Below, piece by piece: positions 907-32,176 of a stretch of 40,164 bases of DNA. The notes under the pieces were generated by a model. It did no database searches and was not told where the DNA came from. It saw only the letters and a program-made list of their open reading frames with translations. Each line of letters begins with the position of its first letter. The stretch's first letter is position 1. Source of the stretch: Terriglobia bacterium (GTDB taxonomy: Bacteria; Acidobacteriota; Terriglobia; Bryobacterales; Bryobacteraceae); contig JAIQFK010000037.1 in NCBI GenBank assembly GCA_020073305.1, positions 1 through 40,164 of the forward strand. The letters run 5' to 3'. The position numbers were made by a program, and so were the translations under genes.

Positions 907-920
907 GGCAAAACCTGCAT
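907..920 (-). promoter_or_regulatory. TGCAG-N4-TTGC element, copy 1
   Basis: On the minus strand this reads ATGCAGGTTTTGCC and lies about 95 nt upstream of the glycine-zipper gene start at 813. It matches the recurrent intergenic element, but has GA rather than GG or AG at the -25/-24 positions, so it is a weaker copy. Confidence 0.35.
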
Positions 921-1049
921 CCAGGTGCATTACTTGTGCCTTCAGTCTTGGATTCAGATCAAGATCCTGATGTTCTTCGGCATAGCGAAATCCGTCCGGG
1001 TGGCGAAAATCAACTCCGCGATGGCCGAACGGGAAGCGGCGTAGACTCG

Positions 1050-1931
1050 TCACTTTTTCGCGTGGTGCCTGAGTGCAAGCTTGGGTCGCGCGGACTCGAT
1101 AGACTCGAGGCGCAGATAGCCGGCGGCGGCACGGACGCGCACTGCTTCCTTCTTGTCCTCGAACAGGGGAAGCAGATCCTTCTCCAAAGCGGGATCGTTC
1201 CTGAGGGCGATGGCGTGGACCGCGGCGGCCCGGACGGACCAATCTTTATCGGTGAGCGCATCCTCGAGCGCCAGCAATACCTGAGGATCCCTGTCGGTGC
1301 TCAGGAGGAGTGCCGTCGCCGCCCGGCCCGAAACGCCTTGATCGGAGAGAATTCCTTGCAAGGACGAAACACCGGCGCCCAATCCTGGGACTGGAGCGAA
1401 GTTCGCACCCTGTTGCAGCGCAAACAGGAACAGCGTCTTGGGCGTATGCAACATCCTGAGCGCTTCCCTCTTCTGCCGGGTGATGAATCCGGATGACGTC
1501 TTCGTCTCGCCGCTGAGAACCGCAAGGAGCGCTTCGTGCCCAACCGGATCGTTGAGCGTCCAAAGCGCTTTGGCAGCCGCAAAACTCACCTCAGGCACAT
1601 CACTGTCCAGTGCCCTGCGCAACGCAGAAACCGTGCGCTCATTCTTCAAATCCATGAGACTTGTGATCGTAGCCAGCCGCACCTCGACATCCTTGTCGTC
1701 GAGCATCGCTTCCAGTTGCGAAAGGTAGGGCTCCACCGGGCTGACCAGGCCTAGCGCCTGTACCGCGTGCTTCCGGTTGTCCGGGTTCTTGTCTCTTAAC
1801 GAGTCATCGAGGAAGGCGCGGGCCCGATCCTGCTGAGATGGCGCCACGGTAATGGGAAGCGAAGCAGGCTCAGGAGTTTGTCCGAAAACGATACAGAGCG
1901 AAAGAAGTGCAGATGCGAAGAAGGTTCGCAT
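1050..1931 (-). CDS. Secreted HEAT-repeat protein
   Basis: A 293-residue protein when started at the ATG at 1931 (MRTFFASALLSLCIVFGQ), which gives a clear signal peptide; the frame is open further upstream but would overlap the preceding gene. The mature part is built of helical HEAT/PBS-lyase-type repeats, for example NPDNRKHAVQALGL, DVEVRLATITSLMDL, VPEVSFAAAKALWTL and DWSVRAAAVHAIAL. Such repeats form solenoids that bind other proteins; no catalytic motif is visible. It starts 13 nt after the two-TM protein gene and is probably co-transcribed with it. Likely periplasmic; partner unknown. Confidence 0.75.
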   Translation of the reverse strand: MRTFFASALLSLCIVFGQTPEPASLPITVAPSQQDRARAFLDDSLRDKNPDNRKHAVQALGLVSPVEPYLSQLEAMLDDKDVEVRLATITSLMDLKNERTVSALRRALDSDVPEVSFAAAKALWTLNDPVGHEALLAVLSGETKTSSGFITRQKREALRMLHTPKTLFLFALQQGANFAPVPGLGAGVSSLQGILSDQGVSGRAATALLLSTDRDPQVLLALEDALTDKDWSVRAAAVHAIALRNDPALEKDLLPLFEDKKEAVRVRAAAGYLRLESIESARPKLALRHHAKK

Positions 1932-1944
1932 GAAAGTAGCTCGC

Positions 1945-2166
1945 TCAGGCTTTTTTTCTGCCGACAACCAGCAACACAACACCGCTGACCGCAGCGATCA
2001 TTCCCACAATCGGGGGGAGCGGAATCGTCTTAGTCCTCTCCGTCGTCACGTGGACCGGACCGAGATCCACAACTTTTTCTCTAGTGGTGTAGGTGAAGCC
2101 TTGATAGGCAAAGGCCATGATCCCAACAGCTATCAGGACGATGGCGAACACTGTGCTTGTTTTCAT
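1945..2166 (-). CDS. Small two-TM membrane protein
   Basis: 73 residues with an N-terminal membrane helix (TSTVFAIVLIAVGIMAFAY), a soluble loop carrying TTREKVVDLGPVHV, and a second helix (IVGMIAAVSGVVLLVVGRKK). This layout is common in small acidobacterial and proteobacterial proteins of unknown function, possibly of the DUF3185 type. It sits between the OmpA-like gene upstream and the HEAT-repeat gene downstream on the same strand. Function unknown; a structural or stress role in the inner membrane is only inferred from its neighbours. Confidence 0.65.
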   Translation of the reverse strand: MKTSTVFAIVLIAVGIMAFAYQGFTYTTREKVVDLGPVHVTTERTKTIPLPPIVGMIAAVSGVVLLVVGRKKA

Positions 2167-2240
2167 TTTGGGATCCTTTCACTTCCGCTCAGGGCCGGCG
2201 GTAGATTGAATGCAGGCCCTGAGTTGAAGCCCATTCAGGT

Positions 2241-4020: not shown

Positions 4021-4707
4021 TTACTTAACTTCTGCATTCTGGTGCCGGGAGTAATGGTTCAATTCAGCCATCAGCTTCGCGGCGTCGTGAGGCGCGCGTA
4101 TCCCCTTGGTTACGATCTCCCGGTTCTCCAGCTTCTTGCCGTAGAGTTCGGCGTTCTCGTCCAGGTCTTCCCGGAGCGTGGCTCCTTCTAGGGCGAGACC
4201 CACAAACAGCCCCTGGGACCGCGACCACGAAAGAATCTCCGCGTGCATCTGGGCGTCGGTTTGTGCTGTCGCCGTGCGTCCCACGGGACCGGCTGCGACT
4301 GAGCCTTCCGCACCCAAAGTGAATTTACTCGAGAGCAGTTTTTCCTCGCCGCGGTCATTCATAAGCAGCATGATCAGGTCCGTCTCAGAGCCGCCGATCT
4401 GGAAACCCACACTGCCGCCCTCAATGCGGACTGTGGCCGGCGCTGACCAGCCCTCGCCGCTCGTCTTCCGGCAGGACAGGTATCCCTTTCCATATTTCCC
4501 GCCAAATACGAAAGCCGCCGTCTTGAGTCCAGGCACAATCACGATGCAGTGGGCGTTCTCAAGAAGCTCTGCCGGAATGCCCTTATCCGGCGCTCCCATG
4601 ACTTCGGAAAATACTGCGGCGGCTTCATCCAGCCGCTTGACAGAATCGTTGTTGTCCTTGCCCAGCAGCGGTGCAATAGCCAGAGCAGCCACTATCGTCA
4701 GTCTCAT
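4021..4707 (-). CDS. SYLF-domain lipid-binding protein (Ysc84 type)
   Basis: 228 residues with a short N-terminal signal sequence (MRLTIVAALAIAPLLG). The SYLF domain is recognised from GIPAELLENAHCIVIVPGLK, then FVFGGKYGKGYLSCR, a WSAPATVRIEGGSVGFQIG segment, the TDLIMLLMND strand and the later SWSRSQGLFVGLALEGA. Proteins of this family bind phosphoinositides in eukaryotes; in bacteria they are mostly secreted and of unknown role. It is the first gene of a likely minus-strand group with the OmpA-like, two-TM and HEAT-repeat genes. The start has AGGAGAG close upstream. A weak sigma-54-like site lies at 4751-4770. Confidence 0.85.
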   Translation of the reverse strand: MRLTIVAALAIAPLLGKDNNDSVKRLDEAAAVFSEVMGAPDKGIPAELLENAHCIVIVPGLKTAAFVFGGKYGKGYLSCRKTSGEGWSAPATVRIEGGSVGFQIGGSETDLIMLLMNDRGEEKLLSSKFTLGAEGSVAAGPVGRTATAQTDAQMHAEILSWSRSQGLFVGLALEGATLREDLDENAELYGKKLENREIVTKGIRAPHDAAKLMAELNHYSRHQNAEVK

Positions 4708-4750: not shown

Positions 4751-4770
4751 TATTGCACGACCAGCACCAA
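4751..4770 (-). promoter_or_regulatory. Weak sigma-54-like promoter candidate for the SYLF gene
   Basis: On the minus strand TTGGTGCTGGTCGTGCAATA has GG and GC separated by exactly 10 bp, as sigma-54 requires. The -24 box (TTGGTGC) is poorer than the consensus TTGGCAC. The predicted start would leave a leader of about 36 nt before the ATG at 4707. Confidence 0.3.
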
Positions 4771-4902: not shown

Positions 4903-4936
4903 GTGCAGAACTTGTCAGTGGAAGTGCAGGATTTGC
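4903..4936 (+). promoter_or_regulatory. TGCAG-N3-4-TTGC elements, copies 2 and 2b
   Basis: GTGCAGGATTTGC at 4924-4936 (preceded by AA, giving AG-N10-GC) and a poorer copy GTGCAGAACTTGT at 4903-4915. Both read on the plus strand within the 275-bp gap upstream of the SYLF gene, pointing away from it towards the end of the NtrC-type gene. Confidence 0.5.
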
Positions 4937-4982: not shown

Positions 4983-6395
4983 CTATGAGTCGATCGCTGC
5001 GGCTACCTTCGCCACTTTGTGGAATTCGGCGATACGGTTCTGCAGTGTCCGAAGACTGATCCCCAGGATTTCTGCGGCGCGCTTGCGGTTGTTGTTCACG
5101 TATTCGAGGGTAAGTTTGATATAGGCTTCTTCGGCTTGCGACAGTGGCTGCCCGGGCTGAAGCGTCAGATGACCCTTGTTGTCGGAGGGTTTTGGCGTCT
5201 TCCCGCCGGATCTCCCGTCAAAGCTGCCAGAAGGCAGGTGATGCAGCTGAATCGCACCAACTCCAGCGACTATCGTAGCCCGCTCGATCACGTTGCGCAG
5301 CTCCCTGACATTGCCGGGCCAATCATAGGTACCAAAAAGCTTCAGCACATCGGAATCGAGACCTGTAACACGGGCGCCGTGCTTCTTGTTGAGAATCTGG
5401 ATCATGACCTCCGCAATGAGCGGAATATCTTCCTTTCGCCCGCGGAGCGGTGGAAGCATGATTTGAAAGACGCTTAATCGATAGTAGATTTCTTCTCGCA
5501 CGTGCGCTACCACGGAGTGGCTGGTGGCGGCAAGCACACGCGCATCTACAGGAATTTCGCTCTTGCCGCCGAGTCTTCGCACCCGCAGGTCTTCGAGCAC
5601 GCGCAAGAGCTTTGGCTGCGCGGATAGCGGCATCTCACCGATCTCATCAAGAAAAAGGGTGCCGCCGTGAGCCTGCTCAAAGCACCCCGCACGGCGCTCC
5701 ATCGCGCCCGTAAACGCACCCTTCTCGTGGCCGAACAACTCGCTCTCAATCAAACTCTCCGGCAACGCCGCTGCATTGATAGCGACGAAAGGACCGTCAC
5801 CGCGCGAGGATAACTTATGGATTTCCCGCGCGACCAACTCCTTCCCCGTACCACTCTCCCCGCAGATCAATACCGACGCTGATGTAGGCCCTACCTGCCG
5901 GATAACCGAGAAGACTTCTTGCATGGCAGGGGAGGTCCCCACCAAGTCTCCAAGGACGCCATGAAGCGTCAGCTCGCGCCTAAGCTCGTCGGTTTTCTGC
6001 AGAGCGCGTTTGTGGAGAATCGCGCGTTCCAGAAGAATCTCGAATGCGCGTGGTTCCACCGGCTTTTCGAGATACCAGAAGGCTTTGAGGTCGTGAACGA
6101 CGGCCAGCGCTTTTTCGATGCTGCCGAATGCGGTGAGCACAATCGCCGGAGTGTGGTCGCCGCGATCCTTCAAGTGCTGGATCAGCTCGAATCCGTCCAT
6201 GCGCGGCATAACCAGATCCGCAACAATGACGTCCGCGCTGAAGGTGCTGAGCCGTTCCAGCGCGTCGAGGCCGTCCGTGGCAACCTGCGTTACAAAGCCG
6301 CGGTCGGAAAGAATGGTCGCCAACGCGGCGCGCTGGGAGGCGTCATCATCTACTATAAGGATGCGGCCAGAAGTGGCTGGCGCTGGGGGCGACAC
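4983..6395 (-). CDS. NtrC-family sigma-54-dependent response regulator
   Basis: 470 residues with three domains. The receiver (residues ~10-125) has the acidic triad DDD at 16-18, phospho-acceptor D60 in VIVADLVMP, and K111 in LEKP. The AAA+ sigma-54 interaction domain (~148-385) has Walker A GESGTGKE (179-186), the sigma-54-contacting loop GAFTGA (226-231), and Walker B GGTLFLDE (244-251). A Fis-type helix-turn-helix lies at the C-terminus ([16 protein letters not shown]). Known role: phosphorylation drives oligomerisation and ATP-dependent opening of sigma-54 promoters. Oddity: the segment between sensor I (AATS) and YYRLSVF is about five residues shorter than usual, lacking the typical EGRF part. 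No cognate kinase is adjacent. Confidence 0.93.
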
Positions 6396-6459: not shown

Positions 6460-7317
6460 CTATTCTGCCGGCTGGCGACGGATGTGAACCGAGGCTAGTG
6501 AAGTGGGCGGAGGCAATTGGTAGTCCGAATAGGTCAAAATTCTGTTGATGTCGTAACTCTTTACGAAAAGGATCCTGGCGCTGGCGCGCAACTCGATGCG
6601 GTTCGGCATCCAGATCCCGTCATCGAAGAGAGTCTGCTCCATGGTAATGTGCGAGCCGCGCAGCACGCGCGCCAGAAACAAACCCATTGAGAACCCCTGG
6701 GTCACGTCTCCTTCGACCTTAACCCACCCGAAGTCCTGCTTGTCGACCCAGAGCTTACCCTCCACCTTGGACATAAGTTTGCCGTACTTGCCGCGCGCGC
6801 GATAGCCGGCTCGCGGCGTTGCCCGAAGGATGTAGGCCGGCCTGTGGTTGATGATCTCTTCGCCGATGAGCTGGAAGTCGAAGCCATCGGGCACTTCCCG
6901 GACGAACGACCGGTTCTGCTCCTGCTCGTGCAGTCGCGCAGCCCGCTCCGGCCGAGTCTCGTGCTTTAATTTGTCGAGCTTCTCCGCCTCCTTCCTTTGT
7001 TCCTCAGCCGATGGAGGCCGCCCGTTGCGTTTCACGAGCTGCTCGAAAGGGGCCTCGCCGACAAAAATGATTCTCGAATCATCGATATCCTGCGACTTCA
7101 CCCGCCCGTCTGAGTCCAGGCGCCGGTCCTCATCATGCTCGGTGAATGCGTAATGCTCCCGCGCCTCCCAGCTCCGCTCTGTTGCCACGATGGACCGCTG
7201 CAGGATCTGGCGTGCGTCCAGGACGCTTACCGGATTCTGAAGTTTGTCTGGAGACGAACCGTGGCTTTGGGCAAAGAGCGGGACCGAGGCCGCGAGGATG
7301 ATGGCCAGCATTTTCAT
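6460..7317 (-). CDS. Secreted LolA-like fold protein
   Basis: 285 residues with a signal peptide (MKMLAIILAASVPLFAQ). A helical, charged middle part (EEQRKEAEKLDKLKHETRPE) is followed by a beta-rich C-terminal half. There, AYILRATPRAGYRARGKYG, KVEGKLWVDKQDFGWVKVEG and GIWMPNRIELR resemble the half-barrel of LolA/LolB-like and outer-membrane lipoprotein-sorting proteins. The family is widespread in Acidobacteria without an assigned role. The start has GAGGTGA nearby. It lies 55 nt downstream of the Thivi_2564-like gene and may belong to that transcript. Role inferred: carrying a hydrophobic ligand in the periplasm. Confidence 0.6.
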   Translation of the reverse strand: MKMLAIILAASVPLFAQSHGSSPDKLQNPVSVLDARQILQRSIVATERSWEAREHYAFTEHDEDRRLDSDGRVKSQDIDDSRIIFVGEAPFEQLVKRNGRPPSAEEQRKEAEKLDKLKHETRPERAARLHEQEQNRSFVREVPDGFDFQLIGEEIINHRPAYILRATPRAGYRARGKYGKLMSKVEGKLWVDKQDFGWVKVEGDVTQGFSMGLFLARVLRGSHITMEQTLFDDGIWMPNRIELRASARILFVKSYDINRILTYSDYQLPPPTSLASVHIRRQPAE

Positions 7318-7372: not shown

Positions 7373-7570
7373 TCAATGGGTGAGTCGATAATTAGTTACG
7401 CTCCCCCACAGGCCCACTGCCTTCAATACCCAAACGCCAATAGCCACCACAACGACGACGTTCAGAATGGCCTTGATGCTGGAGGCCATGGGGATGTAAC
7501 TGTTGACCAGCCACAGCGCCACGCCGACCACGATTAACACTAGAACGATGTTTAGCAACGGCATTTTCAT
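7373..7570 (-). CDS. Thivi_2564-family small membrane protein
   Basis: 65 residues, nearly all membrane: MPLLNIVLVLIVVGVALWLV, the hallmark NSYIPMASSIKAILNVVV, then a second helix and a short polar tail. This sequence is typical of the Thivi_2564 family of small two-TM proteins of unknown function. The ATG at 7570 overlaps the stop of the upstream gene (ATGA), which suggests translational coupling; AGGAGA lies just upstream. It is the third gene of a small-protein operon. Confidence 0.8.
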   Translation of the reverse strand: MKMPLLNIVLVLIVVGVALWLVNSYIPMASSIKAILNVVVVVAIGVWVLKAVGLWGSVTNYRLTH

Positions 7571-7753: not shown

Positions 7754-7906
7754 TCAGACAATTGACCTGCGTCCCTGAATTAGCTGGAACACCAGGACAA
7801 TCAACGCGAACACCAACAAGACGTGAATGACGCCACCCATCGTATAGGAGGTGACCATTCCCAGCGCCCACAACACGAAGAGAATCACACAAATCGTCCA
7901 CAGCAT
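7754..7906 (-). CDS. Lmo0937-family small membrane protein
   Basis: 50 residues: MLWTICVILFVLWALGMVTS followed by YTMGGVIHVLLVFALIVLVF and a QGRR end. This is the compact two-helix pattern of the lmo0937 family (DUF5670), often seen near stress genes. The ATG at 7906 has GGAG upstream. It is the first gene of a likely operon with the 57-residue protein, the Thivi_2564-like protein and perhaps the LolA-like protein. A good sigma-54-like promoter lies at 7975-7990. The exact molecular role of the family is not known. Confidence 0.85.
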   Translation of the reverse strand: MLWTICVILFVLWALGMVTSYTMGGVIHVLLVFALIVLVFQLIQGRRSIV

Positions 7907-7974: not shown

Positions 7975-7990
7975 TGCAATAGCGGGGCCA
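7975..7990 (-). promoter_or_regulatory. Sigma-54 promoter candidate for the 7906 small-protein operon
   Basis: On the minus strand TGGCCCCGCTATTGCA matches the consensus TGGCACG-N4-TTGCA at TGGC and at all of TTGCA, with GG and GC separated by 10 bp. The predicted transcription start is near 7964, leaving a leader of about 58 nt before the ATG at 7906. Confidence 0.5.
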
Positions 7991-8061: not shown

Positions 8062-8096
8062 GATGCAATACTTGCACCTGCAAGTGCCGAATCTGC
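8062..8096. promoter_or_regulatory. TGCAG-N3-4-TTGC elements on both strands, copy 3
   Basis: Minus strand 8062-8079 reads AGGTGCAAGTATTGCATC (GG-N10-GC), pointing to the 7906 operon. Plus strand 8084-8096 reads GTGCCGAATCTGC (AG-N10-GC including the preceding base). The two face away from each other within 35 bp. Confidence 0.45.
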
Positions 8097-8113: not shown

Positions 8114-8887
8114 CTATTCGGAAAAATCTTGATCAGCCGGAGGAAGTGTGAAGTAGAACGTCGAGCCGGCCCCGGGTGTCGATTCCACCCAGATTCGCCC
8201 GCCAAGGCACTCGATGGCCTTCTTGCAGAACGCGAGTCCCAGTCCGGTTCCAGGGCATTCCTTTCCGTGCAGACGCTTAAAGACGCCGAAAATGCGGTCG
8301 TGAAATGCCGGGTCTATGCCAGGACCATTGTCTTGCACGGAAAACACCCATTCCAGATTTCCTCGCTTGGAAGAAATATGAACGCGCGGATGGGGTGTGC
8401 CACAGTATTCTAGGGCATTTCGGATGAGGTGCTTCAGGACCTTTGTAAGTATCTCGGAATCTCCCATTACCGCCGGCAATGGATCATGAGTAACGACTGC
8501 ACTCCCATCGTTTAGCTGCCCGCCCATCGAGAGCAACAAGACGGCCTCCATATCCGTCCGTGACGGCGGCCTGTCGCCGGTATCGGTAACCGCGTACTCC
8601 ACCATGTCGGTCAGCAGCGATTGCATTCTGGCAACGCCGTCCCGGATATGGCTGAGGCATCGATCGGCGTCAGAATCCAGACGGCCGGCATACGATTCGG
8701 CCATCAGTTGACTATTCGCAGCTACGTCGCGGAGAAACTCGCGCAGGTGGTGAGCCGCAATCGAGACGAACTCTTCGAAGCCCCTGTTTGCTTGCTCCAA
8801 CTGCTTCTGTACCTGGAGACAACGCTCTGTTTCCTCGTCGAGTGCCCGGCGCAAATGTTCGATTTCATCTGTCGCGGAGTTATCCAT
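8114..8887 (-). CDS. Soluble histidine kinase paralogous to the kinase part of its neighbour
   Basis: 257 residues without membrane segments. A short coiled coil (residues ~8-40) leads to a HisKA-like helix, FVSIAAHHLREFLRDV, with the likely phospho-acceptor H46; the usual HDLREP reads HHLREF here. The ATPase domain shows the N box (HLIRNALEYC), G1 DNGPGID, FKRLHG and G2 GTGLGLAFCKK. The C-terminal half is clearly related to the end of the CheB/CheR kinase just upstream (FSVxDNGxGIDP, FKRLHGxExPGxGxGLAxCKK, GRIWVES in both). The start codon directly follows the stop of that gene (TGAATG), so translation is probably coupled. It has no sensor domain. Confidence 0.85.
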   Translation of the reverse strand: MDNSATDEIEHLRRALDEETERCLQVQKQLEQANRGFEEFVSIAAHHLREFLRDVAANSQLMAESYAGRLDSDADRCLSHIRDGVARMQSLLTDMVEYAVTDTGDRPPSRTDMEAVLLLSMGGQLNDGSAVVTHDPLPAVMGDSEILTKVLKHLIRNALEYCGTPHPRVHISSKRGNLEWVFSVQDNGPGIDPAFHDRIFGVFKRLHGKECPGTGLGLAFCKKAIECLGGRIWVESTPGAGSTFYFTLPPADQDFSE

Positions 8888-11800
8888 TCAGTACGTGCCG
8901 CCAGGATTGCCGGGGATCCGGCTCGGCACAACGTTCCGGGCAGGAATAGTGAATTTAAATGTGGCGCCTTGGCCGGTTTCCGACTCCACCCAAATCCGTC
9001 CGCTGAGACGCTCCACCACCTTTTTACATAGCGCAAGTCCAATGCCCGCGCCGGGAATCTCCGGTCCATGCAAACGCTTGAACATGCCGAAAACCCGCTC
9101 AGCATCTTGCGGATCGATACCGACTCCGTTGTCACTCACCGAGAACAGCCACCCTTCCGCATTTTTCTTGGCCGCGATATGGATTCTCGGAGTTTCTCCG
9201 CTTCTGTACTTGATCGAATTGGAGATGAGGTTCTGGAAGACCTGCCTGAGCATGACCTGGTCAGCCACCACGGTCGGCAACGGTTCAGAGGTGACTTTAG
9301 CTGCACTCTCTGCAATGACGGCCTGTAGGTTGGCCAGCGTCTTGGCCAGAACGTCGTTGCAGTCGACGGGGGCAAAGCTATCCTGGCCCTGCTCCGTAGT
9401 CTCCCAATAGGTAAGCAAGGCCTTCAGCAAGGCTTCTATCCTCAGCGCCCCCTCCACCGAATACCCAATGAATTTATCCGATTGCTCGCCCAGCTTTCCT
9501 TGATGTTCCCGTGCCAGTAACTGCGTGAAGTTCACCACCATCCGCACGGGCTCCTGGAGGTCATGCGTGAGCGCATAAGCGAAATTCTGAAGCTCCATAT
9601 TGGTCGCCTTGAGCGCGTCCTGAGCCCGTTTGCGGTCGGTCGTGTCCTCAATGGCGAGAAGAATGGTCCGCGCTTGCGCATTCGCATCGAAGACCTCGCG
9701 AGCGTTCAGCAGCATCACTTTCCGTCCAACGCGTGCGAATTCGTGCACCACCTCAAAGTCGCGGAATGCTGAGTGCGCGGGGAGGATGTTATCCAATAGT
9801 TCGCGCAGTTTCGGGATGTCCCATTGTCCTTCTCCCAGGTCGTAGATGAGCCGATCCTCGGTCTCCTGCGGCGTGACCTGGAACGTTTCATAGAACGCCT
9901 TGTTGGCGCTTACGACCCTCAGGTTGTGGTTCAGAATCACGAGAGGCTCCCGGACCGTCTCCACGATAGCTTCGGCGAAATCCAGACCGCGTTTCGCCGC
10001 ATCGATATCGATCAGCATCACTACGGCGCCGTCGATTTTCCCGTTCGGCCCTGTCGATGGCAATATGCGGAGCGAATACCAGTGCCCGTGCGCATCCCGG
10101 ATATTATGGGGCTTTCGATTGCCGCCTTCCATGGCATCCAGCAACAACTGTTGTAGATCAGGAAGTTCAATGTGAGGCTGGAGGTCAGTGATCAATCGCC
10201 CGGCATCGGATGCGATCAGATTCAACATGGGCTCGATGGTCCGGGTGAAGCGACGAATGCGCAGGTCCTTCCCAACCATGACCAGCGGGATGTTGATGCT
10301 TTCAAGAAGATTGCTCAGATCCCGGTTGACCTGGCTCAATTCCGTGTTACTGGTCTTGAGCTCTTCATTTAGTGTGTTCAGTTCTTCGTTGGCGGATTCC
10401 AACTCTTCTTGGGCGGTCTCCAGTTCCTCATTGCCCGCTTGAGCTTCTTCGCTTGCGGATTTGAGCTCTTCCAGGGCACTTTCCTTTTCGTCGATGATCG
10501 ATTGCAGGTACTCCTTGGTGGCCGCAAGCTCGCGCCGCAGCCGGGTGGCCTCTCGGCCGTTGTGCGAGGGTGTTTTGCGCTTCGCCGCAGTAGCCTTCGT
10601 GTTCCCCGGCTCTGGTCCAGCGGCCGGCGCCGTATCCTCGAACAGGATCAAGAAGTAGCGTTCTTTGGAAGAGGATTCCCGGAGCGGGATTACCTTGATC
10701 TTGACCTCGATGAACAGCCCGTTGCTTTCGAGTCGCAAGCCCTCCTCTTTGGCCACGGCGTTGTGTCCTCTGGCGGCTTGGATGGCCTTGTTCAGACCCG
10801 CTATCATGCCTTCCCGCACCATTTTCAGAACGTTATGGCTTAGCTCTCCCGTCGGCAGCTCGAGGTAGGGGCCCGTGCGTCCCCGGACCTGCACGATGTT
10901 CATGGCATCGTCAATGACGACGCCAGCAGGAGCGTATTCCGCCAGCGCCAACCGGTCGGCTTCTCTCTGCACATCTCGGATGTCCGTAGCAATCCACTCG
11001 CGGAAGTCCCCTCGGCCTCCAGTGCGGCGGCCCTCGCCAAGCGCGGGAGGCGGCGTGCCTGTGGCTGGCAGCGGGCAGAAGATTTTGTGTTTCTTCTCGA
11101 CTTGGTGAAACAAATCCGAAAGCGTGCCAATACTTTCCGACGGACCCAACACGAGGAAGCCCGCCGGCTTGAGGGCGTAGTGAAATGTCGACAGCACCTT
11201 GCGCTGCAATACCGCTCCAAGGTAGATCAGCACGTTACAGCAACTGATGAGGTCCAACTTGGAAAAAGGCGGGTCGCGCGCCAGGTCGTGCCTTGCGAAA
11301 ACGCACACGTCACGAATGCTCTTCGCGATCTGGTAGCCGCGTTCCGACCTCGTGAAGAAGCGCGCCAACTGTTTCGGCGAGATAGGGCCCAGCGCCGCCG
11401 GGGTGTATATGCCCACGCGGGCTTTTTCGATTGCCGTTTCGCTGATATCCGTGGCGAAAACCTGAAATGGAACCGTTAAAGCCGCATCGTCCAGGAATTC
11501 GATCATACTGATTGCGATCGAATAAGCTTCCTCGCCAGTGGCGCACCCTGGTACCCAGATCCGGATGGGATCTTCGGGTACTTGATGAGCAAGAAGAGCG
11601 GGAAAAACTTTTTTCTTCAATTCCTGGAAGACCGCGGGTTCCCGAAAGAATGCGGTAACTGTGATAAAAAAGTCCTCGCACAGCGCGCTTGCTTCCTTGT
11701 GGTTCGTTCCGAGATCCGCGATGTAGTCTTCCAGCCTCTCAAATCCGCGGAGAGCCATGCGCCGCCTTATGCGCCGCTTGATGGTGCTGTGTTTATAGTG

Positions 11801-12659: not shown

Positions 12660-12756
12660 GTAAGCTAGTTCGCATACGGCGTCGTTAACTTGCTTGAATT
12701 GTAACGCAGCCAGTGGTGTCCAGCCGAAACCTCGCTGCTGAAGATGTTACGGAACT

Positions 12757-12793
12757 GAGCAATATTGACCAGACAGCGACTTCAACCTAGATT
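12757..12793 (+). promoter_or_regulatory. Sigma-70-type promoter containing a shared 19-mer
   Basis: The 19-mer GAGCAATATTGACCAGACA (12757-12775) contains TTGACC at 12765-12770, followed after 17 bp by TAGATT at 12788-12793. This is a good -35/-10 pair. It reads towards the gene starting at 12815, with GGAG at 12800-12803. The same 19-mer occurs at 16298-16316 on the minus strand. Confidence 0.6.
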
Positions 12794-14285: not shown

Positions 14286-14383
14286 TCTTCTTGATCTCCT
14301 TGTCTCCCTTCTCTAGGCAGATTGGGCACCAAACCTGAAACTCCCTGGAAACCGATCCTGACGACAGAACTGGTTGAGGATTG

Positions 14384-14416
14384 TGCAATTCCTGCCATCG
14401 AAAGTGCAGGAACTGC
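14384..14416. promoter_or_regulatory. TGCAG-type elements, copy 4
   Basis: Plus strand 14404-14416 GTGCAGGAACTGC (AG-N10-GC with the preceding base). Minus strand 14384-14397 TGGCAGGAATTGCA resembles sigma-54 boxes but is 2 bp too short between GG and GC. Both lie upstream of the truncated gene at 14285. Confidence 0.4.
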
Positions 14417-14686: not shown

Positions 14687-14833
14687 CTAAATGCGCCCCA
14701 ACAATGCCAGCACAATTACCACCAACAGAACGGTGCCCAGTATCCCACTGGGACGGTAGCCCCAGCTTCGACTATGTGGCCACGCCGGGACAACTGCCAG
14801 CAGCAGCACGATCAACAAAATAACCAGCAACAT
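14687..14833 (-). CDS. DUF3309-family small membrane protein
   Basis: 48 residues from the ATG at 14833 (AAGGAG upstream): MLLVILLIVLLLAVVPAWPH, then SRSWGYRPSGILGTVLLVVI and a GRI end. The WPHSRxWGYxPSG core between two membrane helices is the DUF3309 signature. Role unknown. It is divergently placed to the Crp/Fnr gene, with the facing upstream regions sharing about 165 bp. Confidence 0.85.
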   Translation of the reverse strand: MLLVILLIVLLLAVVPAWPHSRSWGYRPSGILGTVLLVVIVLALLGRI

Positions 14834-14999
14834 GTTTCTTCTCCTTAGCGCTCTTCGGCAAAATGACTCCAAGCGAATTCGGCTAACTTCCCTAGAGAGC
14901 ACGTGTTGCTCCATTCCTATGTATGCCAGCACCGTCATGGCGACCGACTTGCTCACAGAAAGAAAACCGATGCTCGAGTTGGCCGTTCAGAGGCTGTGT

Positions 15000-16297: not shown

Positions 16298-16316
16298 TGT
16301 CTGGTCAATATTGCTC
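16298..16316 (-). promoter_or_regulatory. 19-mer shared with the promoter at 12757
   Basis: The minus strand reads GAGCAATATTGACCAGACA, identical over 19 bp to 12757-12775. It ends 54 nt upstream of the ATG at 16243. TTGACC could be a -35 box, but the best -10-like sequences downstream (AT-rich near 16270-16285) are spaced too far, so the element may instead bind an activator. Confidence 0.55.
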
Positions 16317-16472
16317 ACATTGAACACCTTCCAATTTCCGTCAGGCGACGGCGATGCTGGCGGTGTCTGCTTAGGTGGCTTGCCGGGTGCTGTTTTTGCG
16401 GTTAACATTACACGCGGATGCATCTCAACGCAAATCTCCAGCGCACCGAGCGACGCCAGCAGGATCCTTGCC

Positions 16473-18958: not shown

Positions 18959-19171
18959 CTGCTGCTCGGAACACACAAAGAGAGATGCTCGTCTAAACGA
19001 TACATCAACAACCGCGAAGGCGATGAGCAAATTTGAGCAGACTACAGAGATGTGTCTGTTATAGTAAGAGCCTCGCCACGAGTATAAAGATGGTGCAGTG
19101 CCATGCATGACGGGTGCGTGCGCGGAGGATAACGCTTGAAATCGCCGGGCGTGGCCGGAAAACGCCGTGTT

Positions 19172-22687: not shown

Positions 22688-22829
22688 CTGAAGGCGCAGA
22701 GGTGCTTGCAGAATCTTCGGCTCCTTCGCGACGCATGACTGCAAGAGCGGGTCCAAAACGGCGAGTTGAGCTACATGGGGACTGCGCCAACCGGAACGCT
22801 GCCGGACTGGGCAGTTCCATCGTCGCAAG

Positions 22830-22844
22830 GTGCAGAATCTGCAC
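22830..22844. promoter_or_regulatory. TGCAG element, copy 6, palindromic
   Basis: GTGCAGAATCTGCAC is an inverted repeat with one central base. Including the preceding G, it gives GG-N10-GC on the plus strand. It lies between the divergent adaptor (22687) and Mg2+ ATPase (23048) genes and could serve either. Confidence 0.5.
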
Positions 22845-22949
22845 TGAACCCGGCAGTTGCTGCACGTCAAACTTCCGGCGGCGGCCGGGCTTTCCGCCCA
22901 TACTCCCAAATGGCAGACAGGATCGTGAGAGATGTAAGATCCGGTGTCG

Positions 22950-22965
22950 TGGCAGTAGCCGTGCA
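22950..22965 (+). promoter_or_regulatory. Sigma-54 promoter candidate for the Mg2+ ATPase
   Basis: TGGCAGTAGCCGTGCA has TGGCA, GG-N10-GC spacing and TGCA at -12. The predicted start is near 22976, leaving a leader of about 72 nt before the ATG at 23048. Confidence 0.45.
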
Positions 22966-23047: not shown

Positions 23048-25591
23048 ATGAGCAAACCAGACAAAACGCTGGACCGCTTCTGGGATATGCCCCTGCAGGA
23101 CCTGCTTGCCCTGCTCGAAGCAACTCCAGCCGGACTGACTTCCGCCGAGGCGAAACAGCGACTGCGGCTTCATGGACCAAACAGCCTGGCAGAAGAGTCG
23201 CGCTTCGCTGCCCTGATCGGTTTTCTGCGCTTCTTTGCCAATCCCCTTGTCCTGATTCTGCTGGCGGCCAGCACCATCTCGATCGTCCTGGGTGATCCGG
23301 TCGGCGGCACGATCATCATCGCCATCGTACTGCTCAGCGTGATCGTGAACTTCTACGTGGAGTTTCAGGCTCGACATGCGGTGGAGGACATTCGGAAGCA
23401 GGTTGCCAGAACCGCCGCGGCTTTGCGCGACGGACAAGAACTGGAGTTGCCGATCGCAGAGTTGGTTCCCGGAGATATCGTCCGGCTCAATGCCGGGGAC
23501 CTGGCGCCAGCCGACGCCCGTTTATTGGACGCCAAGGACCTGCACGTGCGCGAGTCCGCGCTCACGGGGGAGTCTTTGCCCGTCGACAAGGCAGCGGCCG
23601 ATCTTCCAGCCGGGCAACATAGCATTGCCGACGCCAGCAACAGCGTTTTCCTGGGCACGGCTGTTCAAACCGGAATCGGCACCGCAGTTATCGTTCTCAC
23701 AGGCAAAGACACTGCATTCGGCGAGATTGCCCAGCGGCTGGCTATGCGGCCACCGGAGACCGAATTCGGCCGTGGCATACGCCACTTCGGACTGATGATC
23801 ATGCGAGTGATCATGCTGCTGGTGCTCTTCGTCCTGCTGGTGAACATTGTCTTACATCGTCCGCTGCTGGAATCGTTCTTGTTCTCGGTCGCGCTTGCCG
23901 TCGGGATGACGCCGGAGATGATGCCGATGATCATCACGATCACGCTGGCGCAGGGTGCGCGACGGATGGCCAAAAAAAAGGTTCTGGTCAAACAACTTTC
24001 GGCCATCGAAGACTTCGGCAGCATTGAGATCCTTTGCAGCGATAAAACCGGGACCCTGACCGAAGGCGAGATCGTGCTTGACCGGCACGTGGACGTTCAC
24101 GGCCAGGACAACGAAGACGTCCTCCAGTTCATCTACCTCAACAGCTACTTTCAATCGGGTATCAGGAGCCCGCTGGACGACGCCATACTGAAGCATGAGC
24201 ATCCTGCCATCGTGGAATATCAGAAGGTGGACGAGATCCCTTTTGACTTCAACCGTAAGCGCCTCTCCGTGGTAGTGAGGCGTGGCGGCGAGCACCTTCT
24301 CATTACCAAAGGCGAGGCAGAAAGCGTCTTTGCCATCTGCGGGACCGTCATCATTGACGGGGCTCCTCAACCGTTCGATGAAAGCCGGCGAGCCCAGGCG
24401 GCGGAGACCTTCAAGAAGTTGAGTGCCGACGGATTCCGCACGCTCGGAGTCGCGGTCCGAAAGGTAGAGCAGCAGGATGCGTATGCGCTCACGGCCGAGC
24501 AGGAGATGACGCTGGCCGGGTTTGCTGCATTCCTCGACCCGCCCAAGGAGGGGATTCTTGCCGTTCTCGAATCGCTGAACAAGAACGGCGTTTCCGTAGT
24601 CATTATGACCGGCGACAATCAATACGTCACGCAGAAGGTGGCCCACGATGTCGGGCTGGCCACTGACCGCATTGTCACCGGCAGCCAGGTGGACACGATG
24701 GACGATGCCGCCCTGGCTTACCAGGCGGAGCACGGCGCCATCTTCGCTCGCGTGTCTCCGGAACAGAAGAACCGGGTAATCCTCGGCCTGAAGGCGCGCG
24801 GGCATGTCGTTGGGTACATCGGTGACGGCATCAACGATGCTCCGTCACTACACACCGCGGACGTCGGCATTTCCGTAATGAATGGCGTGGATGTGGCCAA
24901 AGATGCCGCGAAAATCATCTTGCTGGAGAAAGACCTTGCGGTCTTGAATGAGGGAGTCATCGAAGGGCGGCGGTGCTTCGCCAATATCATGAAGTACATC
25001 ATCATGAGCACCAGCTCCAACTTCGGCAATATGTTCAGCATGGCTGCGGCGTCGCTTTTCCTGCCATTCCTGCCCATGTTGGCGACTCAAATTCTGCTGA
25101 ACAACTTTCTTTATGACACTTCGCAGGTCGCCGTCCCCGGCGATAATGTCGATCCGGCCCTGCTGCACAAGCCCAAGCGGTGGCAAATTGGGTTCATTCG
25201 CCAGTTTATGATGGTCATCGGCCCCATCAGCTCCGTCTACGATTTCCTCACTTTCGGGGTCCTGCTCTGGCTGTTCCACGCTTCCACCAACGCGCCGCTG
25301 TTTCGGACCGGATGGTTCGTGGAATCCCTCGCCACGCAGACGCTGGTAGTGTTTGTCATCCGGACGGCGGGCAACCCGTTCAAGAGCCGTCCGAGCGGGC
25401 GGTTGCTGTTAGGGGTTGTCGCCGTCTCAGTTGCCGGTGCCGTGCTGCCGTACACGGGCCTTGGCGTCGTGCTTGGGTTTACCCCATTACCACTGTCGTT
25501 GCTGGGTGCGATTTTGCTGCTTGCCCTGACGTACCTGGTTTTGGTGCAAGGCGTCAAGACCTGGTTCTATCGCCGGCATGCGCTGCTGTGA
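23048..25591 (+). CDS. mgtA: Magnesium-translocating P-type ATPase
   Basis: 847 residues from the ATG at 23048 (GGGAGAGG upstream; an in-frame TTG two codons earlier is less likely). Present: TGES of the actuator domain (173-176), phosphorylation motif DKTGTLT with D332, VIMTGDN and the hinge GDGINDAP. The segment FLFSVALAVGMTPEMMPMII with the NPL of FANPLVLILL is typical of the P3B Mg2+ importers MgtA/MgtB, as is LLNNFLYDTSQVAVPGD near the C-terminal helices. About ten membrane helices are expected. Known role: Mg2+ uptake at low Mg2+. It converges with a VIT-family metal transporter. MgtA versus MgtB cannot be settled by eye. Confidence 0.92.
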   Translation: MSKPDKTLDRFWDMPLQDLLALLEATPAGLTSAEAKQRLRLHGPNSLAEESRFAALIGFLRFFANPLVLILLAASTISIVLGDPVGGTIIIAIVLLSVIVNFYVEFQARHAVEDIRKQVARTAAALRDGQELELPIAELVPGDIVRLNAGDLAPADARLLDAKDLHVRESALTGESLPVDKAAADLPAGQHSIADASNSVFLGTAVQTGIGTAVIVLTGKDTAFGEIAQRLAMRPPETEFGRGIRHFGLMIMRVIMLLVLFVLLVNIVLHRPLLESFLFSVALAVGMTPEMMPMIITITLAQGARRMAKKKVLVKQLSAIEDFGSIEILCSDKTGTLTEGEIVLDRHVDVHGQDNEDVLQFIYLNSYFQSGIRSPLDDAILKHEHPAIVEYQKVDEIPFDFNRKRLSVVVRRGGEHLLITKGEAESVFAICGTVIIDGAPQPFDESRRAQAAETFKKLSADGFRTLGVAVRKVEQQDAYALTAEQEMTLAGFAAFLDPPKEGILAVLESLNKNGVSVVIMTGDNQYVTQKVAHDVGLATDRIVTGSQVDTMDDAALAYQAEHGAIFARVSPEQKNRVILGLKARGHVVGYIGDGINDAPSLHTADVGISVMNGVDVAKDAAKIILLEKDLAVLNEGVIEGRRCFANIMKYIIMSTSSNFGNMFSMAAASLFLPFLPMLATQILLNNFLYDTSQVAVPGDNVDPALLHKPKRWQIGFIRQFMMVIGPISSVYDFLTFGVLLWLFHASTNAPLFRTGWFVESLATQTLVVFVIRTAGNPFKSRPSGRLLLGVVAVSVAGAVLPYTGLGVVLGFTPLPLSLLGAILLLALTYLVLVQGVKTWFYRRHALL

Positions 25592-26398: not shown

Positions 26399-27286
26399 CT
26401 AGAGTGCGACGGTGATCGCAAGTCCGACGCCCGGATATCTGCGGTCGTAAAGGTAGTACCCGTTGTCATAATCGATGTAAAGGTCATCGGTGTCGTACCA
26501 GCTTTCTGACCAGTATTCTGGCCAGGGATCCACGAGCATGAACGAAAAGCCGCCGTATGAGAAGCGCGGATACCCCATGTAGATTGTGGGGCGATAGTTC
26601 ATCCGGAAGGCGTGCTGACTTCCGAAATAGAGGCTGAAACGGTCCTCAGGAATGTAGTAGCCGCCATAGCCTCCACGCTGCGCCCAGGTGCGATGATCGC
26701 TGTCCCACCGTTGAGCGCGATTCTCCTGCCATGTACTATGCCCCTGCCAGCCGCCCTGCTGTTGCCATCCGCGTTGCTGTTGCCACGCGACTGCCTGCTG
26801 CTGCGTACGCTGCGGTTGCTGTTGTTGCTGGGCCTGCCGGGAACGTTGTGCCTGCCGCTGTTGCGGCCGCTGTTGTTGAGTCTGCTGGACCCGCTGCTGC
26901 TGCGGTTGTTGTTGCTGAGCCCGTTGGTCCCGCTGCCGCTGCGGTTGTTGTTGCTGAGCCTGTTGGGCTCGCTGCTGCTGCGGTTGTTGTTGCTGAGCCT
27001 GTTGGGCCCGCTCCTGTTGTGGTTGTTGTGGCCGAGCCTGTTGGTCCCGCTGCCGCTGCGGTTGTTGTTGCTGAGCCTGTTGGGCCCGCTCCTGTTGTGG
27101 TTGTTGTTGCCGAGTCTGTTGGGCCTGCTGCCGCTGCGGTTGTTGTTGCTGAGTCTGTTGGACCCTCTGCTGCTTTTCAGGCTTGCCCTGTTTTTCGCTC
27201 TGTTGGTCGTGCTGTGCGTACACAGGGACAATCGTCCCTAAAAGCAGAAAAAGAGCAGCTCTACTGATACCTCGAACAGATTGCAT
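26399..27286 (-). CDS. Secreted Q-rich repeat protein with conserved C-terminal domain
   Basis: 295 residues from the ATG at 27286 (GAGGAG nine nt upstream; an ATG at 27292 is too close to it). A signal peptide (MQSVRGISRAALFLLLGTIV) is followed by a Gln/Arg-rich region with eight exact 13-residue units (residues ~41-144). A Trp-rich stretch (WQQQRGWQQQGGWQGHSTWQ) leads to an aromatic C-terminal domain of ~85 residues (YYIPEDRFSLYFGSQHAF, YMGYPRFSYGGFSFMLVDPW, DRRYPGVGLAITV). From memory, that domain recurs in Acidobacteria with no assigned function. Likely exported and possibly self-associating; this is inferred from composition. Followed by the VIT gene. Confidence 0.72.
   Translation of the reverse strand: MQSVRGISRAALFLLLGTIVPVYAQHDQQSEKQGKPEKQQRVQQTQQQQPQRQQAQQTRQQQPQQERAQQAQQQQPQRQRDQQARPQQPQQERAQQAQQQQPQQQRAQQAQQQQPQRQRDQRAQQQQPQQQRVQQTQQQRPQQRQAQRSRQAQQQQQPQRTQQQAVAWQQQRGWQQQGGWQGHSTWQENRAQRWDSDHRTWAQRGGYGGYYIPEDRFSLYFGSQHAFRMNYRPTIYMGYPRFSYGGFSFMLVDPWPEYWSESWYDTDDLYIDYDNGYYLYDRRYPGVGLAITVAL
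26855..27166 (-). repeat. Eight 39-bp tandem coding repeats, Q-rich
   Basis: Eight consecutive 13-residue units of the type RAQQAQQQQPQRQ occupy exactly 312 bp inside the Q-rich gene. Units alternate in their second residues (RV, QA, RA, RD, RA, RA, RD, RV), so higher-order duplication is likely. Confidence 0.85.
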
Positions 27287-27292
27287 AATCAT

Positions 27293-27655
27293 CGTCTCCT
27301 CTAAGATCGGTATTGGATGTGCACGCAGACGACCAGTCAGTGTTCCTCCTCTTGGAAGTGTCGCCTTTGTGTCTGTGCCGAGCCGGGTCAAGCATCGGAG
27401 ACCACGCTACGGGGAGATACGAAGTAGGGCCGCACCCGCAAGTGCAGAATTTGCTTTTGGCAATGCACATTTAGCTGAACGTAAAGGCCGGATGGCCCAG
27501 CTCGCGGCGGCCTCGCCCCATAAACCTCTCGAATTCAAACGGCGGCAAATGTGCAACAGGTCAGTTACGCCGTCTTGCGCGTTCCGCGTGACGCCACGGC
27601 GGGCGAGTTACTGCGCGCGATTCCCAGCCCACCAGACACCCGGCCACCGTCGGCA
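27293..27655. other. Gap upstream of the Q-rich gene
   Basis: 363 bp with no credible gene on either strand. It holds the TGCAG element at 27442. The next gene to the right ends here on the minus strand. Confidence 0.6.
27442..27454 (+). promoter_or_regulatory. TGCAG-N3-TTGC element, copy 7
   Basis: GTGCAGAATTTGC, preceded by AA (AG-N10-GC). It reads on the plus strand, away from the Q-rich gene whose upstream region it occupies. Confidence 0.5.
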
Positions 27656-30517: not shown

Positions 30518-30634
30518 GGATTCGTGCAGTGGTTGCAGTTGCTGGTGGGTCCGGAGTCGCACTGGGAGGAACTTGATCGGCGGCCGGATATCCGGGCTGA
30601 GTTCTGTGGCTCCCACCCCGGTTGTATTCTGTCG

Positions 30635-30657
30635 TTGCCGTCTTCTTCCTACGGCAA
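30635..30657. terminator. Hairpin downstream of the WS/DGAT gene
   Basis: TTGCCGT, a 9-base pyrimidine-rich loop, then ACGGCAA form a perfect 7-bp stem 118 bp after the stop. Followed by TTCTT only, so termination is uncertain. Confidence 0.35.
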
Positions 30658-30673
30658 TTCTTGCGTTATGGAA

Positions 30674-30686
30674 GGCAGGAATTGCA
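30674..30686 (+). promoter_or_regulatory. TGCAG-like element, copy 8 (variant)
   Basis: GGCAGGAATTGCA; the GG and GC are 8 bp apart, so it does not fit sigma-54 spacing as the others do. The core GCAGGAATTGCA also occurs on the minus strand at 14384-14397. Confidence 0.3.
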
Positions 30687-30911
30687 CCTGCGCGCGGGCG
30701 CCTCCAGTCTCTGGCTTGTTGTTTCCACGCATTCTGCTTTGGTCCAGAATCTGCTCAAGCAAGACCCGATGGAATACAGTATTTAAGACCTACAACTACT
30801 GGACTGTGCTTGGCGGCTCCTGCAGAGCTTCAAATCGAACATTACCGGGGAATCCGCACAGCGAGCGGTCTCGTAGTTCGTCTAATTCCTAATCTGAAAG
30901 AAGGAGATATC

Positions 30912-31292
30912 ATGCCACAAACGAGAGACGCCAAAGGACGTTGGATGCAGAGCGTTTTGGCGGCAGACACTCTTACAGGCGACAAGGTCGTGAACCGTCA
31001 AAAAGAGGATCTCGGAAAAATCGAACATTTGATGATCGACGTCGAGAAGGGTCGAGTCGCTTACGCGGTCCTTTCTTTCGGGGGGTTCCTGGGTATGGGT
31101 GATAAATTGTTTGCCATCCCCTGGAATGCACTCGCGGTAGACACCGTTGAAAGACAGTTCATCCTGGATGTCGATAAACAGTTGTTGGAGCACGCTCCCG
31201 GTTTCGACAAGGCTCACTGGCCGAACATGACCGACCGCGCCTGGGGCGCCGAAGTCTCAAGCTATTATGGCGCCAAGCCCTATTGGACCTAG
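30912..31292 (+). CDS. PRC-barrel domain protein
   Basis: 126 residues; AAGGAG lies 6 nt before the ATG. The PRC-barrel is visible in SVLAADTLTGDKVVNRQKED, LGKIEHLMIDVEKGRVAYAV, LSFGGFLGMGDKLFAIPWNA and the closing FILDVDKQLLEHAPGF. Known: this beta-barrel, first described in photosynthetic reaction centre H subunits, is also found in small stress-associated soluble proteins and in RimM. No second domain. It opens a plus-strand run of small stress genes (CsbD, DUF3309-like, GlsB/YeaQ, YXWGXW). Confidence 0.88.
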   Translation: MPQTRDAKGRWMQSVLAADTLTGDKVVNRQKEDLGKIEHLMIDVEKGRVAYAVLSFGGFLGMGDKLFAIPWNALAVDTVERQFILDVDKQLLEHAPGFDKAHWPNMTDRAWGAEVSSYYGAKPYWT

Positions 31293-31377
31293 AGTCTGGA
31301 ACTAAAGCGGGAATTCTCGCATGTAAGCATCACGTCCGCAGGGGGTCAAAGACCGATTCGAAATCGAGCCCGAATGT

Positions 31378-31393
31378 TGGGCATCAAATTGCA
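31378..31393 (+). promoter_or_regulatory. Sigma-54 promoter candidate for the CsbD gene
   Basis: TGGGCATCAAATTGCA has GG-N10-GC spacing and a perfect TTGCA at -12; the -24 box (TGGGCA) is one base off the usual TGGCAC. The predicted start is near 31404, giving a leader of about 64 nt. Confidence 0.4.
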
Positions 31394-31467
31394 ATTCCTT
31401 CAGGGGTGGGTGACGGAGAACCCGCCCCTTACCGATTACGCAAACTTGAAGAATACGGAGAAGACAA

Positions 31468-31647
31468 ATGAAGTCGAGCACGAAAGACCAGATTAAGGGC
31501 AAGTTTCACGAGGTGAAAGGCAAAGTCAAAGAGAAGGCTGGCCAGGTCATCAACGATCCTGACTTAGAGGCTGAAGGCAAATCCGAGAACCTCACTGGCA
31601 AGGTTCAAAAGAAAGTCGGGCAGGTCGAAGGCGTCTTTGAAAAGTAA
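31468..31647 (+). CDS. CsbD-family stress protein
   Basis: 59 residues, ATG at 31468 with GGAG 8 nt upstream. STKDQIKGKFHEVKGKVKEK, AGQVINDPDLEAEGKSENLT and GKVQKKVGQVEGVFEK are the standard CsbD pattern: a short, hydrophilic, Lys/Glu-rich helical protein. Known: CsbD of Bacillus subtilis belongs to the sigma-B general stress regulon; the molecular role is unclear. In this window a sigma-54-like element lies upstream instead. The next small membrane gene begins 53 nt downstream and may share the transcript. Confidence 0.93.
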   Translation: MKSSTKDQIKGKFHEVKGKVKEKAGQVINDPDLEAEGKSENLTGKVQKKVGQVEGVFEK

Positions 31648-31700
31648 GCGAGGCGGGCTCGGCGCGAGCGCCAAGCTTCAGAAAGAAGCGAGGATTCAAA

Positions 31701-31856
31701 ATGCTGATACTGATTGTGATTATTCTATCGTTGGTTCTCAGCGGCGGCGGGTACTACGGCTATGGCCGCTGGGGTTACCGAGGCGGCGCAGGCGTGGGGC
31801 TGGGTACCGTCTTGTTGATTCTCCTCGTAGCCTACCTGTTGGGGCTTTTCCACTGA
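31701..31856 (+). CDS. Glycine-rich small membrane protein (DUF3309-like)
   Basis: 51 residues; GAGGA lies about 6 nt before the ATG at 31701. A hydrophobic start (MLILIVIILSLVLSG) leads to GGGYYGYGRWGYRGGAGVG and a second helix (LGTVLLILLVAYLLGLF). The layout equals DUF3309 proteins, but the central motif is YYGYGRWGY rather than WPHSRxWGY, so it is a variant of that group. Location: inner membrane. Role unknown; it follows CsbD and precedes GlsB/YeaQ, both stress-linked. Confidence 0.75.
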   Translation: MLILIVIILSLVLSGGGYYGYGRWGYRGGAGVGLGTVLLILLVAYLLGLFH

Positions 31857-32176
31857 GGCTACGCGCGACACTCGGGATGCCGCGCGATGCAGGCAGTCTT
31901 ATCGATTCCAACACGCGGGCACGGAGCCAGCACGTAGAGTTATGCACTTGAGTGCAGGTTTTGCCGGTACCCGCGTAGCTGCCTGATGGCGTGTCAAGTG
32001 TTTGCATACGGTCACGCACGTGCAGTGCTAAACGTCGGAGAGCGGTGAAATATGATCCAACCGAGAAAGATACATCGCATCTTATTTGCGCTTGTGCTCT
32101 ATTCATCATGCGAGGTGGCGCATACGGCCGGTCGTCTTCGTCGCTACATTCATTGACGGGACAAACGGGAGCGACT
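31857..32176. other. Gap before the GlsB/YeaQ gene
   Basis: 320 bp. It holds a TGCAG element at 31952 and a possible 34-residue frame at 32052-32156 (MIQPRKIHRILFALVLYSSC...), with GGAG upstream but no recognised relatives. I do not see anything else. Confidence 0.5.
31952..31964 (+). promoter_or_regulatory. TGCAG-N4-TTGC element, copy 9
   Basis: GTGCAGGTTTTGC, preceded by GA (AG-N10-GC). It reads towards the possible 34-residue frame at 32052 and the GlsB/YeaQ gene at 32177, so here the orientation fits a promoter. Confidence 0.5.

Follow-up and report, generated by a model that had tools for sequence, protein, structure and literature searches.

The 40,164-nt window analyzed here, the entire contig C8 of a Terriglobia bacterium genome (6.98 Mb in 51 contigs), contains a recurrent 33-nt element that is very probably the enhancer (upstream activating sequence) of an NtrC-family sigma-54 response regulator encoded at 4983-6395 of the same contig. 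Element and regulator are predicted to control a mostly co-located envelope and stress regulon that includes the regulator's own operon. The motif, its local clustering, the -24/-12-like sites downstream and the co-occurrence with orthologs of the regulator can be read directly from the sequence.

The element, denoted class I, has the layout TGCA-N5-TGC-N9-TGCA-N5-TGC, that is, two palindromes with dyads 21 bp apart. The window contains six class I elements:

4903 to 4936 (no strand): class I element upstream of the Ysc84 gene 4021-4707 (minus strand); 33.4 bits, E = 9.8e-5
8063 to 8096 (no strand): class I element upstream of the DUF5670 gene; 31.9 bits; covers two previously reported copies, 8062-8079 and 8084-8096
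14383 to 14416 (no strand): class I element; 36.5 bits; core matched perfectly
22830 to 22867 (no strand): class I element between two divergent genes; 41.1 bits, E = 3.6e-6
27442 to 27475 (no strand): class I element upstream of the repeat-protein gene 26399-27292 (minus strand); 35.2 bits
30654 to 30687 (no strand): class I element upstream of the PRC-barrel gene; 34.7 bits

An earlier, sequence-only reading of the window reported nine intergenic copies of a shorter motif, and all nine strings are present where it placed them. The repeat is real, and the plain string GTGCAGNNNTTGC is over-represented in the window (5 occurrences compared to 0.07 expected; at least 5 in 0 of 100 shuffles), but the motif was mis-framed, most copies being one half of the longer paired palindrome. 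Five of the class I elements account for six of the nine coordinates, 30654-30687 is newly found, and 8062 (minus) and 8084 (plus), listed as separate copies, are the two halves of one element. Several of the listed copies deviate, with GTGCCGAATCTGC at 8084, CTGC in 14404 and 22830, and ATGCAG at the beginning of 907. The fifth plain GTGCAGNNNTTGC, at 30524, directly past the stop codon of a wax-ester-synthase-like gene, lacks a partner and falls outside the element layout. The intergenic placement holds for all nine copies under the second set of gene calls, but in the first, cruder set, a doubtful open reading frame (ORF) at 769-1044 (plus strand) spans 907. The copies at 4924 and 27442, said to face no gene, are both located upstream of minus-strand genes, palindromes being directionless.

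Several lines of evidence define the paired layout. A repeat finder aligned 4903-4936, 8063-8096, 14383-14416 and 27442-27475 over 34 nt, with 30654-30687 matching on the other strand; half-sites at 4903, 14383, 22853-22865 and 27463 complete the pairs at a distance of about 21 bp; and six places in the window match the paired pattern with at most one mismatch. The position weight matrix holds approximately 32 bits. Its 34 columns are symmetric, with r = 0.77 compared to at most 0.47 in 500 shuffles, and so are its 13-bp halves (0.83 and 0.82). In the first set of loci, 82% of which was called coding, 46 of the 53 matches with at most one mismatch were intergenic and 7 fell in called genes. 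After refinement, 78 of the 82 matches of at least 22 bits (0.89 Mb) were intergenic, a share that is partly circular because the matrix was refined on intergenic matches only.

A whole-genome scan with a sequence-only model built from 49 sites (E<=0.05) yielded seven matches, all on this contig; the next one, with E = 0.06, is on C21. The genome-wide scan suggested by the sequence-only reading, performed with the simple pattern, found 32 matches versus 23 in the reversed control, a small excess, so that the element forms a local cluster on this contig and not a genome-wide repeat. The many intergenic copies and their partly palindromic nature could also be those of a small dispersed repeat similar to repetitive extragenic palindromes, a recombination site or an RNA element, in each case without a regulatory role; however, the six window copies are on average 27% identical in the flanks compared to 61% in the cores, only seven confident copies exist in the genome, many copies are followed by promoter-like sites, and the element co-occurs with one regulator (see below). 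A plain small repeat, one of the options of the sequence-only reading, is therefore rejected, the flanks being unrelated, and this entire group of explanations is extremely improbable. The RNA or hairpin version was set aside on symmetry, spacing and the promoter results, without a fold or Rfam search.

The proposed activator and the gene heading its presumed operon are:

4983 to 6395 (minus strand): NtrC-family sigma-54 response regulator, proposed activator, with a receiver domain, an AAA+ domain with GAFTGA and a Fis-type helix-turn-helix (HTH) domain
7754 to 7906 (minus strand): DUF5670 small protein (8.9e-16; lmo0937 family in relatives), head of the presumed activator operon

The protein combines the AAA+ sigma-54 interaction domain, the GAFTGA loop and the Fis-type HTH, and the genome encodes sigma-54 (rpoN; one Sigma54_DBD match, 3.5e-57). 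Among the matches listed, its closest named relatives are from Acidobacteriota. The aligned orthologs have a common 12-residue HTH stretch or a near variant of it, whereas three paralogs with 50-56% identity carry LGISLKTLHNKL instead. The presumed operon comprises, on one strand, DUF5670, 7373-7570, 6460-7317 and the regulator gene; because the element 8063-8096 and a good candidate promoter at 7975-7990 precede this gene run, the arrangement suggests that the regulator activates its own operon. Two kinases are encoded nearby, 8114-8887 and 8888-12652 (minus strand), and related kinases are present in 13 loci. The latter is a CheB-CheR-PAS-histidine kinase fusion of 1254 amino acids that adjoins the second kinase, 8114-8887, and is a candidate for the activator's sensor.

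Two separate searches covered genomes of the same family, one for the regulator and one for the paired pattern (first sample, 121 genomes), the first pattern search relying on a core derived from the window alone. Orthologs with about 70-77% identity are carried by 17 of the 121 genomes (16 including the partial gene in G090, plus a contig-end fragment in G095), and at least one perfect pair was detected in all 17, compared to 18 of the 104 others. Some of the perfect pair matches are probably coding coincidences, and those in G020, G053, G065 and G067 look like chance matches of this kind. With the model (E<=0.05) and 237 genomes, 20 genomes had at least four matches, and the ortholog, present in 21 of the 237 (18 by search, plus fragments in G090, G095 and G121), was found in 19 of the 20 element-rich genomes versus 2 of the 217 others (Fisher test, 8e-25), a table that is partly circular because most of the element-rich genomes contributed training sites to the model. 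G121 and G122, which were outside the training, have seven and eight matches, respectively; the congeneric G035 and G094 lack an ortholog (best matches 55% identical) and have two and zero. A phylum-wide sample of 395 other genomes yielded no ortholog at E<=1e-172, with the best few candidates per genome scored. The loci of 80 listed activator matches with 36-50% identity contain three single element matches at no more than one mismatch and no cluster; with up to two mismatches, there are 23 in 1.21 Mb of listed distant-activator loci versus 93 in 0.63 Mb of ortholog or element loci, with 16 for the reversed control. Except in G232, G236 and G036 (see below), palindromic sites located upstream of a promoter are co-inherited with the activator.

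The activator gene is partial at contig ends in G090 (L194) and G095 (L285), has a shortened frame in G120 (L193) and is represented by a fragment in G121 (contig C177). It seems to break assemblies, being partial in these four relatives, with contig C78 of G036 (L282) ending just before the gene. G020, G067 and G108 each encode two activator orthologs.

Downstream of many elements, we detected separate sites resembling sigma-54 promoters. For promoter scoring, the stretches between element and start codon were compared with a manually specified matrix for sigma-54 -24/-12 sites; L210 (within L285), L211 and L212 (own-genome regions) were left out of the site-gene and promoter sets, L211 containing one coding pattern match. 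The mean best score in 59 element-bearing upstream regions was 8.65, compared to 5.06 in length-matched element-free regions (standard deviation 0.45, highest of 151 draws 6.06), orthologous promoters being non-independent samples. Across 91 site-gene pairs, the forward strand averaged 8.42 and the reverse strand 4.88, and the forward score was the higher one in 70 pairs. The 53 sites scoring at least 8 have the consensus TGG(C/A)(C/A)C-N4-C-NTGCA, and 41 of them have C at the eleventh position, which the matrix did not demand. After collapsing by target family, the element-to-promoter distance is 43-119 nt in 44 of 50 cases, with clusters at 51-56, 64-66, 73-79 and 83-85. These distances are in phase with 10.5 bp (resultant 0.50, reached in 0 of 3000 random sets), a result that is not relied upon because the null mixes a single preferred distance with true periodicity. 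In seven YflT/ActD promoters, the conserved blocks are the element, the -24/-12 site and the stretch leading up to the start codon; the eight promoters of the largest target family align patchily, with candidate promoters at 51-56 and 133-137 nt and no clear footprint. Overall, a GG-N10-GC site lies between element and gene in the set as a whole, albeit not at every site. The candidates in the window are:

4754 to 4769 (minus strand): candidate -24/-12 site TGGTGCTGGTCGTGCA, score 8.1; about 134 nt from the element; similar in L203
7975 to 7990 (minus strand): candidate -24/-12 site TGGCCCCGCTATTGCA, score 13.3; before the DUF5670 gene
14316 to 14331 (minus strand): weak candidate -24/-12 site TGGTGCCCAATCTGCC, score 6.2
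22950 to 22965 (plus strand): candidate -24/-12 site TGGCAGTAGCCGTGCA, score 10.6; before the P-type ATPase gene
22740 to 22755 (minus strand): candidate -24/-12 site TGGACCCGCTCTTGCA, score 9.3; 16-mer identical in L192
27320 to 27335 (minus strand): weak candidate -24/-12 site TGGTCGTCTGCGTGCA, score 5.0; similar in L189
30740 to 30755 (plus strand): candidate -24/-12 site TGGTCCAGAATCTGCT, score 10.7; similar spacing (53-55) in L185 and L195

These sites bear on the claim that the motif itself is a divergent -24/-12 sigma-54 promoter. Such an identity would fit the G and GC found 10 bp apart in many copies as well as the nearby sigma-54 activator and the rpoN gene, but the 10-bp spacing results from the palindrome geometry, and GG precedes the left TGCA in only 10 of the 49 aligned elements and the right TGCA in 3, so that the invariant -24 GG is absent. 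Furthermore, the motif is palindromic whereas sigma-54 promoters are directional, and better TGG-N10-GC sites follow many elements. With the GG missing and the motif palindromic, we reject this identity as very improbable. The connection to sigma-54, which is very probably involved, survives, and so does the last option offered, a regulator site, here as the enhancer of an NtrC-family activator.

Two of the previously reported sites, 907 and 31952, do not fit the paired model (scores 3.5 and -3.0) and instead have a common layout, TGCAC-N5-TGCAG-N4-TTGC, denoted class II. A further site, 15726, is an orphan weak match to the paired model:

908 to 929 (minus strand): class II element TGCACCTGGATGCAGGTTTTGC, upstream of the YflT/ActD-like gene 106-813 (minus strand)
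848 to 863 (minus strand): weak -24/-12-like site AGGCCATGCACATGCA, score 4.3; 44 nt from the class II element
31943 to 31964 (plus strand): class II element TGCACTTGAGTGCAGGTTTTGC; 22-mer exact in L196 and L301, intergenic there
32009 to 32024 (plus strand): weak -24/-12-like site CGGTCACGCACGTGCA, score 2.3; at the 44-45 nt spacing known from relatives
32177 to 32434 (plus strand): transglycosylase-associated protein (PF04226)
15705 to 15742 (no strand): orphan weak match to the paired model, E = 0.022, 20-bp spacing

The Pfam scores of the protein encoded at 106-813 are just below the curated cut-offs. A looser class II pattern has seven matches, all seven intergenic, and none in the reversed control. 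A GG-N10-GC is present 44-45 nt downstream in seven of the nine class II sites inspected, with low scores on the canonical matrix; L213:7558 has one at 87 nt, and in L206, where the class II site and a class I element overlap, there is none at the 44-45 nt spacing. Soon after the promoter-like site at 32009-32024, a short ORF at 32052-32156 (plus strand) starts with MIQP, with similar starts in L186 and L203; this ORF may encode a genuine small protein or act as a leader.

Several observations, along with the two circularities, the manually specified matrix and the non-independent promoters mentioned above, weigh against the assignment of the element to this regulator. G232 and G236 encode the regulator with the same HTH and yet have zero and two matches, with no element match in the 10-kb contigs that hold their regulator genes; G036 has 15-16 matches without an ortholog, although its contig C78 stops about 100 nt before the position at which the gene begins in its sister G095. 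Three of the six ATPase family promoters score 3.2 or less, and four of the five promoters of one recurrent small-protein family score below 5. In the window, candidates scoring at least 8 follow four elements (five candidates), three more have candidates of 4.3-6.2 and one of 2.3; a higher-scoring GG-N10-GC (7.8) at 31965-31980 abuts the class II element 31943-31964. The orphan at 15705-15742 has no GG-N10-GC within 383 nt to the right or 36 nt to the left. G232 and G236, with the activator but without clustered elements, would be compatible with an operator of some other regulator co-inherited with the activator, such as the CRP-like protein 14832-15668 or one of the further response regulators in the window. 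However, the CRP-like protein is in none of the listed gene groups (at least four members or a target), whereas the activator is in 22 loci, a comparison that is not neutral because the loci were chosen by activator or element. Sigma-54-type promoters require an activator of the NtrC class, and the downstream sites are sigma-54-like, so an activator of this class is needed. We therefore consider another regulator to be unlikely; the CRP-like protein was rejected as the binder due to its absence from the listed recurrent gene groups.

Under the enhancer interpretation, two regulator dimers would bind, via the Fis-type HTH, the two TGCA-N5-TGCA palindromes, which, 21 bp or two helical turns apart, would place the dimers on one face of the DNA. 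Once phosphorylated, perhaps by one of the nearby histidine kinases, the regulator would assemble into an ATPase ring and reach, by looping, the sigma-54 RNA polymerase at a -24/-12 promoter located in most cases 43-119 nt downstream. We infer this binding, phosphorylation, looping and activation, as well as the kinase partner, from sequence. The targets would be largely co-located envelope and stress genes, in addition to the regulator's operon, and in the window include:

23048 to 25591 (plus strand): magnesium-translocating P-type ATPase (TIGR01524, 1.5e-265)
30912 to 31292 (plus strand): PRC-barrel protein, with an alternative call starting at 30945, followed by a CsbD-like gene at 31468-31647

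Putative targets were defined as the first gene past an element with a promoter score of at least 6, resulting in 69 proteins. Pfam families among these (25 of 44 listed) include ActD/YflT (7), DUF5670 (5), PRC-barrel (4), P-type ATPase (3), OmpA (3), HlyD (3) and Ysc84 (2); these are plain tallies of target genes, and no enrichment is claimed. The ATPases of the target family match the magnesium-translocating model.

Gene 26399-27292 contains a 39-bp tandem repeat (8.5 copies), and its homologs recur in the loci of relatives, some beside an element. A second, 20-nt motif, TGTCTGGTCAATATTGCTCA, has two exact copies: 12756-12775 (minus), which precedes the CheB-CheR kinase gene by about 100 nt, and 16298-16317 (plus), close to where the gene ending at 18026 starts. 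A looser third copy, at about 19024-19043 (minus), has four mismatches and lies close to the beginning of the BrkB gene; two more occur in the relative L182 at 9921 and 11141 (three and four mismatches). This motif is possibly the operator of another regulator. A large serine recombinase is encoded near the contig end (38396-40045, plus strand) and might be tied to the patchy distribution of the cluster.

The regulator has the same receiver-AAA+(GAFTGA)-Fis HTH architecture as NtrC, AtoC and ZraR, with likewise paired palindromic sites upstream of -24/-12 promoters and apparent self-regulation. However, it scores below the curated NCBIfam cut-offs of AtoC (389 of 714 bits), NtrC (380 of 558.6) and ZraR (318 of 760), and does not qualify as an equivalog of any of the three. 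It differs from these systems in its own motif, TGCAG-N3-CTGCA with 21-bp pairing, and in its putative targets, which are envelope and stress proteins, not nitrogen or acetoacetate genes. NtrC palindromes are of the TGCAC type and similar in style; no paper was found for such consensus strings. In Desulfovibrio vulgaris, a member of a different phylum, sigma-54 regulons were reconstructed by the same logic, combining an activator with the motif and the sigma-54 promoter detected upstream of orthologous genes, and some activators were assigned to the envelope stress response (PMC4641369); the main text of that article contains no TGCA string. The envelope-heavy target set is in line with a survey in which sigma-54 was proposed to be a general controller of the bacterial exterior (PMC3162934), the main text of which does not mention Acidobacteria, Solibacter or Koribacter. 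Among the listed literature matches for sigma-54 with Acidobacteria, the target families and the motif strings, there is no described counterpart of this regulon. For one putative Acidobacteriota regulon, the present analysis supplies an activator with its DNA motif, candidate positions of promoters and a list of targets; with motif and regulator paired, the role of several small, conserved stress proteins (DUF5670, YflT/ActD, PRC-barrel and DUF3309) can be tested as one response. The proposed targets are YflT/ActD, DUF5670, PRC-barrel, Ysc84, the transglycosylase-associated protein, the Mg-type ATPase and probably the CsbD-like protein. Tentatively, sigma-54 and one dedicated activator could, in one Acidobacteriota family, govern an envelope or general stress response that elsewhere is under sigma-B or extracytoplasmic function sigma factors. 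Activator, kinases and enhancer-tagged targets would then form a compact module whose inheritance is patchy even among congeneric genomes.

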